Assembly: GCA_017305665.1 (NCBI GenBank)
Contig: JAFKKH010000012.1
Location: 1 to 64,000, forward strand
Length of the DNA stretch: 64,000 nt
From: Hyphomicrobiales bacterium
Lineage (GTDB): Bacteria; Pseudomonadota; Alphaproteobacteria; Rhizobiales; Xanthobacteraceae
Direction: 5' to 3'
Shown here one piece after another: positions 13,979-55,911 of the stretch. The position numbers were made by a program, and so were the translations under genes. Under the pieces are notes generated by a model. That model was not told the origin of the DNA, made no database searches, and worked only from the letters and a program-made list of their open reading frames with translations. How positions within the stretch are numbered: position 1 is the first letter of the stretch; each line of letters opens with the position of its first letter.

Positions 13979-15664
13979 ATGCTTGCGCGCCTTTCGATCC
14001 GCGACATCGTCCTGATCGAGCGGCTCGATATCGAGTTCGCTTCCGGCCTTGCGGTGCTGACCGGCGAAACCGGCGCGGGAAAATCGATTCTGCTTGATGC
14101 TTTTGCGCTGGCGCTGGGCGGGCGCGGCGATGCCGGGCTGGTCCGCCACGGCGCGGAGCAGGGGCAGGTCACCGCCACCTTCGACATTCCGAAGAGCCAT
14201 CCGGCGGCCGCGATCCTCGCCGCCAACGACATCGAGGGCTCTATCTCCGAAGATTCGGGCGAGATGATCCTGCGCCGCGTGCAGCTCGCCGACGGCCGCA
14301 CCCGCGCCTTCATCAACGATCAGGCGATCAGCGTGCAGACGATGAAAGCGGTCGGCGCGGCACTGGTGGAAATCCATGGCCAGCACGACGAGCGCGCGCT
14401 GGTCGACGCCTCCACCCATCGCCGGCTGCTCGATGCCTTTGCCGGACTGGAGAAGGATGTCGCCGCGCTGGAGATGCTGTGGGACGCCCGTCGCACGGCG
14501 CGCGCGGCTCTCGACGATCACCGCGCCGGCATGGAGCGCGCGGCCCGCGAGGCCGACTATCTGCGTCACGCCTCCGACGAATTGAAGAAACTCGCGCCGC
14601 AGGACGGCGAGGAGACCACGCTCGCCGAGCGCCGCACCACGATGATGCAGGGCGAGAAGATCGCGGGCGATCTGCGCGAGGCGCAGGACGCCGTCAGCGG
14701 CAACAACTCGCCGGTGACGGTGCTCGCCGCGGCGGTGCGGCGGCTGGAGCGCCGTGCCGCGAGTTCGCCGCAACTGGTGGAGCCCGCGGTCAAGGCGATC
14801 GACATTGCGATCAATGCGCTGGAGGAGGCCGACCAGCATCTGGCCGCCGCGCTCACTGCTGCCGATTTCGATCCGGCCGAACTGGAGCGCATCGAGGAGC
14901 GGCTGTTCGCGCTGCGCGCCGCCTCGCGCAAATACGCCACGCCGGTGGATGGCCTCGCGGCGCTGGCTGCGAAATATGCCGCGGACGTTGCGCTGATCGA
15001 CGCCGGTGCCGACCGGCTCAAGATCCTGGAGAAGGATGCGACCGAAGCCGACAAGCGCTATGCGGCCGCGGCGCAAAAGCTGTCGGCGGCGCGGGTGAAA
15101 TCCGCCGAGAAACTCAACAAGGCCGTCAACGGCGAGCTCGCGCCGCTGAAGCTCGAGCGCGCGAAGTTCTCGACGCAGATCGACTCCGATCCGGAATCGC
15201 CGGGGCCGCAGGGCTTCGACCGTGTCGAGTTCTGGGTACAGACCAACCCCGGCACGCGGCCGGGGCCGCTGATGAAAGTCGCGTCCGGCGGCGAGCTGTC
15301 GCGCTTCCTGCTGGCGTTGAAGGTCGTGCTCTCGGACAAGGGTTCGGCGCCGACCCTGGTGTTCGACGAGATCGATACAGGTGTCGGCGGTGCGGTAGCC
15401 GATGCCATCGGCGCGCGGCTGGCGCGGCTCGCCGGCAAGGTGCAGGTGATGGCGGTGACCCATGCGCCGCAAGTCGCGGTGCGGGCCGATCAGCACCTGC
15501 TGATTTCAAAGGATGCGCTGGATCGCGGCAAGCGCGTCGCGACCCGCGTGGCGACATTGGCGAAGGATCACCGCCGCGAGGAGATCGCGCGGATGCTGGC
15601 CGGTGCGGAGATCACTGCCGAAGCCCGCGCCGCCGCTGACCGGCTGCTCAAGGCGGCGGGATGA
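13979..15664 (+). CDS. recN: DNA repair protein RecN (SMC-like ATPase)
   Basis: RecN acts early in double-strand break repair, bringing DNA together during RecA-dependent recombination. The 561-residue protein has the Walker A GETGAGKS at residues 29-36 followed by ILLDAFALALGGRG, a Q-loop/ABC region HGQHDERALVD, a central alpha-helical coiled-coil region (about 155-370), and the C-terminal ABC signature SGGELSRFLLALKVVL, Walker B PTLVFDEIDTGVGG and the H-loop VTHAPQVA. The length is normal. It is followed by palindromic repeats and a GIY-YIG gene instead of directly by ligA. Confidence 0.97.
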   Translation: MLARLSIRDIVLIERLDIEFASGLAVLTGETGAGKSILLDAFALALGGRGDAGLVRHGAEQGQVTATFDIPKSHPAAAILAANDIEGSISEDSGEMILRRVQLADGRTRAFINDQAISVQTMKAVGAALVEIHGQHDERALVDASTHRRLLDAFAGLEKDVAALEMLWDARRTARAALDDHRAGMERAAREADYLRHASDELKKLAPQDGEETTLAERRTTMMQGEKIAGDLREAQDAVSGNNSPVTVLAAAVRRLERRAASSPQLVEPAVKAIDIAINALEEADQHLAAALTAADFDPAELERIEERLFALRAASRKYATPVDGLAALAAKYAADVALIDAGADRLKILEKDATEADKRYAAAAQKLSAARVKSAEKLNKAVNGELAPLKLERAKFSTQIDSDPESPGPQGFDRVEFWVQTNPGTRPGPLMKVASGGELSRFLLALKVVLSDKGSAPTLVFDEIDTGVGGAVADAIGARLARLAGKVQVMAVTHAPQVAVRADQHLLISKDALDRGKRVATRVATLAKDHRREEIARMLAGAEITAEARAAADRLLKAAG

Positions 15665-15675
15665 TTGTTTTTTCC

Positions 15676-15718
15676 GTCATTCCGGGGCGCTCGCCCGCGG
15701 GCGAGCGAACCCGGAATC
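15676..15718. repeat. Palindromic repeat R1 (GTCATTCCGGGGCG ... CCCGGAATC)
   Basis: Arms GTCATTCCGGGGCG and GAACCCGGAATC enclose an almost perfect 18-base palindrome GCTCGCCCGCGGGCGAGC. It lies 11 bases after the recN stop. Same family as the repeats at 15796, 16170, 19168, 55136 and 55216. Confidence 0.85.
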
Positions 15719-15795
15719 TCGATATGGTTGCTCGCTGCCGCATATACGGCCTGGTTCCTGCGAGACCACCCCGGAATGACACGGTCGGTTCTTCA

Positions 15796-15831
15796 GTCAT
15801 TCCGGGGCGTGCGCAGGACGAACCCGGAATC
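15796..15831. repeat. Palindromic repeat R2, left border of the GIY-YIG unit
   Basis: GTCATTCCGGGGCGTGCGCA ... GAACCCGGAATC, same orientation as R1. An orphan half-arm CCCCGGAATGAC lies at about 15769-15780, between R1 and R2. R2 is in opposite orientation to R3, so the two frame the GIY-YIG gene as inverted repeats. Confidence 0.85.
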
Positions 15832-15863
15832 TTGACATTGTCGCGCGCGGACGTAGTCCCGCG

Positions 15864-16151
15864 TTACGGCGTGATGCTGTCGTACAGATCTATCCAGTCT
15901 GGATTTTCCGCCTCGACAAGCTCGATCTTCCAAGCGCGGCGCCACTTCTTGATCTCTTTCTCGCGAGAGATAGCAGCGACAGGATCATCGTAGACTTCAA
16001 ACCAGACCAGCTTCGCAATGTTGTAACGAGAGGTAAATCCGGGAACTGACTTGGTGCGATGCTCGTAGACTCGCCGTACAAGGTCATTGGTAACGCCGAT
16101 ATAGAGCGCGCCATCTTTCCTGCTCGCGAGGAGATAGACATAATAGGCCAT
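15864..16151 (-). CDS. Small stand-alone GIY-YIG family nuclease
   Basis: A 95-residue protein consisting only of a GIY-YIG (UvrC-type) nuclease domain: MAYYVYLLASRKDGALYIGV supplies the paired Tyr motifs (YVYLL and LYIGVT, residues 3-23), NDLVRRVYEHR carries the catalytic Arg, and E-rich EKEIKKWRRAWKIELVEAENPDW follows. Such proteins cut DNA, but the cellular role of this short family is not established. I chose the ATG at 16151 because homologues start M-x-x-Y-V-Y; the frame is open upstream through repeat R3. It is antisense to recN and ligA and separates these normally adjacent genes. Palindromic repeats flank it on both sides, which suggests a mobile or repeat-associated unit. Confidence 0.88.
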   Translation of the reverse strand: MAYYVYLLASRKDGALYIGVTNDLVRRVYEHRTKSVPGFTSRYNIAKLVWFEVYDDPVAAISREKEIKKWRRAWKIELVEAENPDWIDLYDSITP

Positions 16152-16169
16152 CGACGGGCTCCACAGCGA

Positions 16170-16209
16170 GATTCCGGGTTCGCGGGCTTTGCCCGCGCCC
16201 CGGAATGAC
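16170..16209. repeat. Palindromic repeat R3, right border of the GIY-YIG unit
   Basis: GATTCCGGGTTCGCGGGC-TTT-GCCCGCGCCCCGGAATGAC, opposite orientation to R1 and R2, with an internal hairpin GCGGGC/GCCCGC. It ends 16 bases before the ligA ATG. Confidence 0.85.
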
Positions 16210-16216
16210 CACGTAA

Positions 16217-18376
<2,160 letters not shown>

Positions 18377-18460: not shown

Positions 18461-18594
18461 GTCATTCCGGATTGCGAGTTCATAGAACGAGCAAGTCCGG
18501 AATCCATAACCCCTGAGATTGCTTTTTGTTTGCTACATTGGCGCGGAGCGTATGGATTCCGGGCCCATCGCTGAGCGATGGCACGGAATGACGC
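18461..18594. repeat. Head-to-head pair of GTCATTCCGG palindromes after ligA
   Basis: Left unit: GTCATTCCGGATTGCGAG ... AAGTCCGGAATCCATAACCCC (about 18461-18510). Right unit, inverted: TATGGATTCCGGGCCC ... GGGAATGACG-like CACGGAATGACGCC (about 18550-18594). The inner arms GGAATCCATA and TATGGATTCC are also complementary, so the whole 134 bases could fold into one long structure, possibly ending the ligA transcript. Confidence 0.75.
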
Positions 18595-19167: not shown

Positions 19168-19203
19168 GTCATTCCGGGGCGTGCGAAGCACGAACCCGGA
19201 ATC
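19168..19203. repeat. GTCATTCCGGGGCG palindrome at the end of copy A
   Basis: GTCATTCCGGGGCGTGCG-AAG-CACGAACCCGGAATC, a clean hairpin of the R1-R3 family. The corresponding position of copy B also carries this palindrome (55216-55255), so it travels with the 560-bp repeat. Confidence 0.85.
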
Positions 19204-19245
19204 CATAACCGCCGTGACTGCTCTTGTCCGAAACATCAGCACAGG

Positions 19246-55199: not shown

Positions 55200-55215
55200 T
55201 TGCAATCATTTTCGA

Positions 55216-55255
55216 GATTCCGGGTTCGCTCGCAAAAGCTCGCGCCCCGGAATGA
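55216..55255. repeat. GATTCCGGG...CCCGGAATGAC palindrome, inverted orientation
   Basis: GATTCCGGGTTCGCTCGCA-AAAG-CTCGCGCCCCGGAATGAC. Forms the end of repeat copy B, equivalent to 19168-19203 at the end of copy A. Confidence 0.85.
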
Positions 55256-55796
55256 CGCTGAGAGCGTGTCGGCGCCGCGCTCCAATTCCGATTCACATTT
55301 CAAACAGCCAAGCATCGTTGGTCCCGCGCGCGAATGCGCCGGGTTGTGCTTTCGGTTCTCGCCCCTCGAACAATGAGGGGTGATGGAGCGCCGAGAGGCG
55401 CACCTTGAACTTTCAGTTTCCGCAGCATGCTCGTCCGAAACGGCGGAGAGCAGAGGCCGCGGCGACGCCTTCCGGCGCTCCATCCCGGCGGTTTTGGGTT
55501 TCGGGACCGCGCTTCCGGGTGCAGGTGCGCGCCAACTAACGGCCCGCCATCCCAGTGGTTTCCCACTGTTCGCCTGCACCGCGTCCAGCCAGCTCGTGGC
55601 AGACCCCCGTAGTGGGGCCGGGCGGTGGCCTAAAACCTCCCGGACGCGTGCTTGCGAGGCACGACGCGCAGGACGCCGCATCCTGCTCCACTTCCGAACG
55701 CCCTCGAGAAGCGCCCCTCGTGAACAGGACGCGTGCAGCATAAGCGAGGTCCGGAGACCGGGGATAAGCGAAGCTACGATTTAATGTTGATGAACA
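55256..55796 (-). repeat. Dispersed ~560-bp repeat, copy B (inverted)
   Basis: The reverse complement aligns with copy A (18608-19167) from TTCATCAACATTAA through GCTTATCCCCGG, CCTGTTCACGAGGGGCGCTTCT, GAAGTGGAGCAGGATGCGGC, CTACGGGGGTCTGCC, CTGGCTGGACGCGGTGCAGG, CGGAAGCGCGGTCCC and CCCCTCATTGTTCGAGGG to GGCTGTTTGA and the palindrome. Differences are concentrated in a patch near the middle. Within the 889-base gap between degP and serB I see no supported gene; plus-strand ORFs here share only fragments with those of copy A. Confidence 0.8.
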
Positions 55797-55817: not shown

Positions 55818-55911
55818 GTCATACCCGCGAAAGCGGGTATCCAGTACGCCGCAGCTTTCTGCTCTCGCTCGCCGTTTTGGACTACTGGGTCCCCGCCTTC
55901 GCGGGGACGAC
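55818..55911. repeat. Hairpin repeats ATACCCGC-GAAA-GCGGGTAT and GTCCCCGC-CTTC-GCGGGGAC
   Basis: Two head-to-head members of the family seen at 3300 and 19246: GTCATACCCGCGAAAGCGGG... (55818-55847) and GGGTCCCCGCCTTCGCGGGGAC (55887-55908). Confidence 0.75.

Follow-up and report, generated by a model that had tools for sequence, protein, structure and literature searches.

A stand-alone GIY-YIG nuclease gene framed by CGTC-type REP palindromes: a RAYT-like pairing suggested by comparison across genomes

Comparison across genomes gives good support to a RAYT-like pairing between a small stand-alone GIY-YIG nuclease gene, found here between recN and ligA in a Hyphomicrobiales genome, and the CGTC-type REP palindromes that frame it. 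From these comparisons the gene and the palindromes are almost certainly a cognate pair. The first-pass annotation had proposed that GIY-YIG genes could play the RAYT-like part; the framing of homologous genes, a palindrome type that follows the protein, a copy number that follows the gene, and the doublets found elsewhere all speak for this proposal. A recent, genome-specific insertion at the recN-ligA junction is not supported.

The gene, its palindromes and the recN-ligA junction

Three related palindromes (R1, R2 and R3) had been described around a single GIY-YIG gene of 95 residues, with R2 and R3 inverted and sharing a perfect 14-bp end, and all of these features were located again in the window, the 64,000-nucleotide stretch of DNA analysed here (Table 1). 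R1 and R3 also share a perfect end, of 15 bp. The full units are built as GTC + ATTCCGGG + loop + CCCGGAAT + CTC/CTT, and folding them as hairpins with RNA parameters gave -34.2 (R1), -16.3 (R2), and -28.9 kcal/mol (R3). Together with the half unit at 15764-15780, R1 makes an outward-headed pair of about 105 bp, as in the doublets seen genome-wide.

Table 1. Coordinates of the gene, its neighbours and the REP units in the window
Feature	Position	Strand	Basis or remark
recN, left neighbour of the GIY-YIG gene	13979..15664	+	TIGR00634, 477.5 bits
R1, CGTC-type REP unit	15676..15721	+	GTC head, ATTCCGGG stem, long loop, CTC tail
Half REP unit	15764..15780	-	Absent from the first-pass list; detector gave no full unit there
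R2, CGTC-type REP unit	15796..15834	+	One inner frame of the gene
Stand-alone GIY-YIG nuclease gene, 95 aa	15864..16151	-	ORF and Pfam PF01541
R3, CGTC-type REP unit	16167..16209	-	Inverted; other inner frame of the gene
ligA, right neighbour of the GIY-YIG gene	16217..18376	+	NF005932, 881.2 bits; start codon approximate
Outward-headed REP doublet after ligA	18461..18592		Units 18461-18507 (+) and 18552-18592 (-)
Type-1 REP	19168..19206	+	
Type-1 REP	55213..55256	-	

The 95-residue protein matches Pfam GIY-YIG (PF01541) at 58.8 bits, its one Pfam domain. A Pfam search of the 5.03-Mb genome that contains the window returned two GIY-YIG loci, this gene and a 701-residue open frame that, judged by its length, is taken as uvrC. 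Across 34 relatives of the protein 20 columns are invariant, including Y6, Y17, R27, H31, E64, and N83, residues that we take to be of the catalytic type. With dN/dS of 0.09-0.29 in eight pairs of relatives, the predicted nuclease is, by these alignments, conserved and under purifying selection. Structure prediction gave a GIY-YIG fold with high confidence (pLDDT 92.9), and the closest structures were those of UPF0213 and Slx1. UPF0213/YhbQ-type GIY-YIG proteins (PDB 1zg2, 1ywl) were the top solved-structure matches by sequence, and 1zg2 was ranked first by Foldseek as well. E. coli YhbQ is a distant relative (29% identity), and in the one E. coli genome viewed the surroundings of yhbQ are without such palindromes. 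The homologue in N. gonorrhoeae is 53% identical to the window protein and is surrounded by GTCATTCCCGCG palindromes; these are in any case frequent in that region, with 10 more in the 6.3 kb read.

The palindrome family recurs elsewhere in the window, as had been noted, the exact head 14-mer GTCATTCCGGGGCG of this type (type 1) occurring five times in the window; the 5.03-Mb genome holds 50 copies of it versus 1 of a reversed control. When up to three mismatches were allowed, the window showed no excess (21 versus 16.3 expected, with 19 of 100 shuffles reaching 21), so that only exact or palindrome-aware counts are informative. In the window's genome, 29 type-1 loci were viewed (L003-L031). 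Thirteen of them are outward-headed pairs, usually of two dissimilar units, and in 11 of these 13 the heads lie 95-102 bp apart. The doublets are mostly heterodimers in which the loop of one unit starts with GGGGCG and that of its partner with GGGATGC or GGGACAC. At 55818-55911 the window holds an outward doublet of another CGTC type (GTCATACCCGCGAAAGCGGGTATCCAG / GTCGTCCCCGCGAAGGCGGGGACCCAG); as a single stand-alone GIY-YIG gene was found in the genome, this doublet is either an orphan type or an old relic. A profile search of the window's genome for the Y1 transposase (PF01797) at E 0.001 gave no match.

The window palindromes appear to fit the CGTC REP superfamily, with the heads of R2 and R3 and the tails fitting less well. 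The relevant passages of Di Nocera et al. (2013; PMC3733652) define CGTC-1 by an 8-bp stem with A-T pairs at positions 1 and 2, a CGTC head that is often TGTC or CCTC, and a short, mostly CCA tail, with loops that are variable in Bradyrhizobium; they also equate Neisseria CGTC-1 with dRS3. R1, R2, and R3 carry an 8-bp stem, ATTCCGGG/CCCGGAAT, with AT first, and loops that vary like those of Bradyrhizobium CGTC-1, and the window type has the copy number and dimers of the superfamily as those passages present it (50 exact 14-mers; outward doublets at 13 of 29 loci). The heads are CGTC in R1, AGTC in R2, and GGTC in R3, with GTC constant. The tails in the window are CTC or CTT, and most of the genome copies listed end in CCA; the published passages likewise give CCA for most, not all. 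The consensus of Br-REP2 of Bradyrhizobium, as set out in the relevant part of Hahn et al. (2016; PMC5082802), matches the window units. In the same passages of Di Nocera et al. (2013; PMC3733652), CGTC REPs have no association with transposase genes and are apparently without a dedicated transposase, whereas here a GIY-YIG gene is their recurrent associate.

The statement of the first-pass annotation that recN and ligA are normally adjacent is correct for six of eight congeners, in which the two genes directly adjoin and no remnant was seen between them. Across the family, the same gene occupies the junction in 11 genomes of six genera (G000, which is the window's genome, G002, G013, G017, G020, G057, G060, G073, G091, G105, and G109), in G020 in the opposite orientation. 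G004 has a 205-bp recN-ligA spacer without the gene. Viewed from RecN, 24 of 30 loci had ligA within reach and 5 of these 24 had the gene in between; viewed from the gene, 9 of 140 GIY-YIG loci were flanked by both recN and ligA. The occurrence in 11 genomes of six genera speaks against a recent insertion specific to the window's genome and indicates a locus that is old or recurrently occupied. By this distribution, the cassette of gene and palindromes has either stayed in the recN-ligA gap for a long time or come to occupy it repeatedly; RAYT genes are likewise stably resident. In one congener (L224, G002:C199) the gene copy at recN-ligA has decayed, with inverted type-1 REPs still framing it.

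Framing, palindrome type and copy number across genomes

A protein search blind to repeats found relatives in 91 of the 119 genomes of the family, each of these 91 giving 1 to 9 matches. Going down the ranked list, 60 regions were picked, the majority 20 kb long, and these contain 62 homologous loci. Type-1 palindromes alone lay on both sides of 20 of these 62 loci and of 2 of 750 control ORFs from the same regions. Many loci carry other CGTC types, and broader measures were therefore applied. An inverted-repeat score between flanks, which uses no REP definition, had a median of 34.5 at the loci versus 14 in 798 controls, and 37 of the 62 loci exceeded the control 99th percentile, some high scores being due to repeats other than REPs (e.g., L083, L119, L126). 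Under a general grammar of CGTC-type units, outward, inverted, and no more than 250 bp from the gene, 42 of 62 loci were framed on both sides, versus 6 of 750 ORFs and 0 of 142 small ORFs (Fisher p 2.5e-48, although p-values here overstate independence because loci and genomes are related). A REP on either side was present at 51 of 62 loci, 100 of 750 ORFs, and 10 of 142 small ORFs.

The same grammar was applied to a named set unused in writing it, taken from a species collection in which 591 relatives were confirmed and ranked by protein similarity. In these best 80 of 591, both-side framing was seen at 49 of 80 loci versus 5 of 335 ORFs and 1 of 73 small ORFs, and a REP on either side at 67 of 80 versus 36 of 335 and 7 of 73. 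In both sets palindromes stand beside GIY-YIG genes far more often than beside control ORFs, so that the check proposed in the first-pass annotation is passed comfortably. By record title, many being metagenome bins, the two-sided cases come from alpha-, beta-, gamma-, and deltaproteobacteria, Omnitrophota, Parcubacteria, Uhrbacteria, Moraniibacteriota, and Chloroflexi; in a case titled Armatimonadetes the right unit is doubtful, and one titled Nitrospirae is one-sided. With a relaxed grammar, both sides were framed at 46 of 62 family loci versus 23 of 759 control ORFs and at 59 of 81 loci of the named set (77 loci once three repeats are removed) versus 9 of 314; such framing was also seen at 12 of 20 additional family loci and, for plasmid records, at 9 of 11 loci. 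Of the 62 family loci, 20 are not framed on both sides under the strict grammar and 16 are not under the relaxed one, and 7 have nothing on either side.

In Rhizobium sp. K1/93 (L270), a plasmid-borne GIY-YIG homologue has no framing palindromes by either detector and is possibly an exception or a domesticated copy. On plasmid p1 of Planktothrix agardhii (L275), the GIY-YIG gene has a type IIL restriction enzyme gene as one neighbour and DISARM drmA as the other. The GTCATTCTGAG...AGAATCTC repeats on its two sides escaped the detectors and are possibly a cyanobacterial type.

The type of palindrome follows the gene that it frames. Between the left and the right unit of each of the 42 two-sided family loci, a mean of 1.12 of 13 nt differ, versus 3.47 when shuffled (minimum of 2000 shuffles, 2.62), and at 23 of these loci the two are identical over the 13 bases. 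REP distance correlates with protein distance (Mantel r 0.53, 0 of 5000 permutations), and 13 of 16 same-genome paralogue pairs have different REP signatures, G073 being a genome with such paralogues; host relatedness is left in for all these figures. L078 and L084 each hold two genes in one region, each within its own REP type. Flank types were mixed in a check of type-2 repeats, for which some of the genomes had been selected by their high counts.

Copy number, in turn, goes with the gene. Across the 119 family genomes, the median number of type-1 head 14-mers was 120 in the 18 with an identified type-1-flanked gene (a REP on at least one side) and 3 in the other 101, whose genes were examined in part; at least 40 copies were present in 14 of these 18 and in 14 of the 101 without an identified one. 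Two genomes with a type-1-flanked gene, G017 and G038, have only two copies, and G090, in which a type-1-framed gene was seen later, has 33. Grouping by protein similarity alone and subtracting the two flanking copies gave medians of 59 and 3 (24 versus 95 genomes, p 1.4e-5), and 28 genomes had no protein match, the 20 of them that were listed having a median of 0. Within the window's genus, five genomes were counted, with 50 copies in G000, 8 in G005, and none in G006, G007, and G008. Away from the gene in the family regions, 48 of 63 outward pairs within 1 kb were spaced 60-140 bp, versus 3 of 17 inward pairs. Clean presence or absence of single doublets between related genomes was not obtained, as the intergenic DNA is too diverged.

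Gain or loss of whole cassettes could be followed at two sites. The suf operon of Azospirillum lipoferum 4B carries the gene between sufB and sufC, with a REP doublet on each side, while eleven further Azospirillum records among those listed span both sides of sufB-sufC with about 490-590 bp less DNA. In the six of these that were read (A. ramasamyi, oryzae, B510, argentinense, thermophilum, and brasilense) there is no gene at sufB-sufC, and by eye no CGTC REP in the gap, B510 having another inverted repeat. The most economical reading is that the cassette was gained in A. lipoferum. On pSymB of S. meliloti Ak57 (L279 2668-3470), an intact cassette stands beside a fragment copy between gltA and lpxB, and Sinorhizobium sp. 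K101, with flanks 95-96% identical, has a head-to-head fused palindrome in place of the cassette. This presence and absence may represent a gain or a loss. The tandem in S. meliloti Ak57 consists of a REP, a C-terminal GIY-YIG gene fragment, and a REP adjoining the intact copy. No target-site duplication was seen at the cassette sites compared.

A proposed mechanism and its alternatives

A REP type that tracks the protein, a copy number that tracks the gene, and non-autonomous doublets are as expected for a RAYT/REPIN-like pair. In the mechanism proposed here, the nuclease would recognise its own palindrome, most likely as a hairpin in single-stranded DNA, and would cut it; repair or replication at the cut would then place copies of REP doublets elsewhere and, on rare occasions, do the same with the whole REP-gene-REP cassette. 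Non-autonomous copies of the palindrome are spread over the genome, with the window cassette resident in the recN-ligA gap. It is likely that the nuclease acts on its own palindrome. Whether this action also drives the spread of the palindromes is nearly balanced, with a slight lean toward its doing so, and a modest preference can be given to the reading that the pair works like a REPtron with a GIY-YIG nuclease replacing the HUH tyrosine transposase. A more general proposal has somewhat less than an even chance: CGTC REPs would descend, as non-autonomous copies, from a second type of REPtron, present in many phyla, whose GIY-YIG nuclease recognises the hairpin, drives its copying, and coevolves with it. 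Counted against the proposed mechanism are the 14 of 101 genomes with at least 40 copies and no identified type-1-flanked gene, the mere two copies in G017 and G038, and the doublet of another CGTC type at 55818-55911 in a genome with one stand-alone GIY-YIG gene found. The family loci that lack both-side framing, the mixed flanks of the type-2 repeats, and the target-site duplications and clean single-doublet differences that did not turn up count against it as well.

That the nuclease acts on the palindrome is a step shared with two alternatives. According to one, which is unlikely, the nuclease acts on the palindromes without spreading them, cutting single-stranded DNA (incoming or lagging-strand) and so tuning DNA uptake or recombination, and the palindromes serve as markers that something else maintains or spreads. 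The role of Ssn in Neisseria is reportedly close to this. The gonococcal homologue among its GTCATTCCCGCG palindromes would suit such an activity, though they are dense in that region anyway, as would a protein that is under purifying selection and can keep the same site in several genera, in the manner of a resident function; the equation of Neisseria CGTC-1 with dRS3 in the relevant passages of Di Nocera et al. (2013; PMC3733652) points the same way. By itself, however, this account does not predict the link between copy number and gene, the narrow size range of the doublets, or the apparent cassette gain in A. lipoferum.

Homing is less probable still, and would require that a free-standing endonuclease cuts pre-existing REPs and is copied into them, the REPs being spread by something else. 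GIY-YIG domains are typical of homing enzymes, and at the site that holds REP-gene-REP in S. meliloti Ak57, Sinorhizobium sp. K101, which lacks the gene there, retains a single fused palindrome. Yet REP counts go with the gene, a Y1 transposase was not found in the window's genome, and a pre-existing REP is not evident by eye at the six empty Azospirillum sites, none of which has one of CGTC type (B510 has its other inverted repeat). Coincidence, in which REPs are common in intergenic gaps and some merely fall near the gene, is very improbable. REPs are indeed frequent enough to lie on at least one side of 100 of 750 ordinary ORFs, or of 208 of 759 with the relaxed detector, but both-side framing is 24- to 85-fold commoner at the homologous loci than at control ORFs, depending on set and detector, and REP type follows the protein. 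Framing controls and type tracking together contradict coincidence, unless the control ORFs, which came from a simple caller, are grossly unrepresentative.

Relation to known systems

REPs are among the common short repeats of bacteria, and a partner enzyme is known for the GTAG class. For the CGTC class none had been found as of 2013, according to the relevant passages of Di Nocera et al. (2013; PMC3733652). A small nuclease framed by a matching palindrome in several phyla is the likely missing partner of CGTC REPs. The loci also offer a large natural set of nuclease-palindrome pairs, the specificity of which could be read from the genome, and, if the Ssn work is as reported, would tie a biochemically known enzyme family to the REP problem.

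The closest likeness is to the REPtron/RAYT system, in which, as here, a gene is framed by inverted cognate REPs, outward doublets occur elsewhere, and the REP type is gene-specific; the doublets share the anatomy of the REPINs of that system. The window system differs in having a GIY-YIG domain rather than the HUH Y1 tyrosine transposase (PF01797), and its REPs have GTC (CGTC-type) heads whereas those of REPtrons are GTAG-headed. Lacking both the Y1 domain and the GTAG head, it falls outside the REPtrons proper. It may differ as well in gene number, since relatives of the window gene can have several copies (the 1 to 9 matches noted above). GIY-YIG homing endonucleases cut an allele that lacks their gene and are copied into it; for the cassettes compared here, presence and absence were seen.

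A 2025 paper is said to describe Ssn as single-strand-specific GIY-YIG nucleases, with a cognate repeat (NTS) in Neisseria and many homologues that have cognate sequences of their own. The window protein resembles them in being small, stand-alone, and single-domain (95 aa), in its identity to the Neisseria homologue, and in having, by association, a repeated cognate sequence in its genome. It is probably an Ssn-type enzyme, given its 53% identity to the gonococcal homologue and the GTCATTCCCGCG palindromes around the latter. Ssn nucleases reportedly cleave DNA site-specifically and only when it is single-stranded. Compared with that paper, the connection with CGTC REPs, the doublets, the covariation, and the residence at recN-ligA appear to be new.
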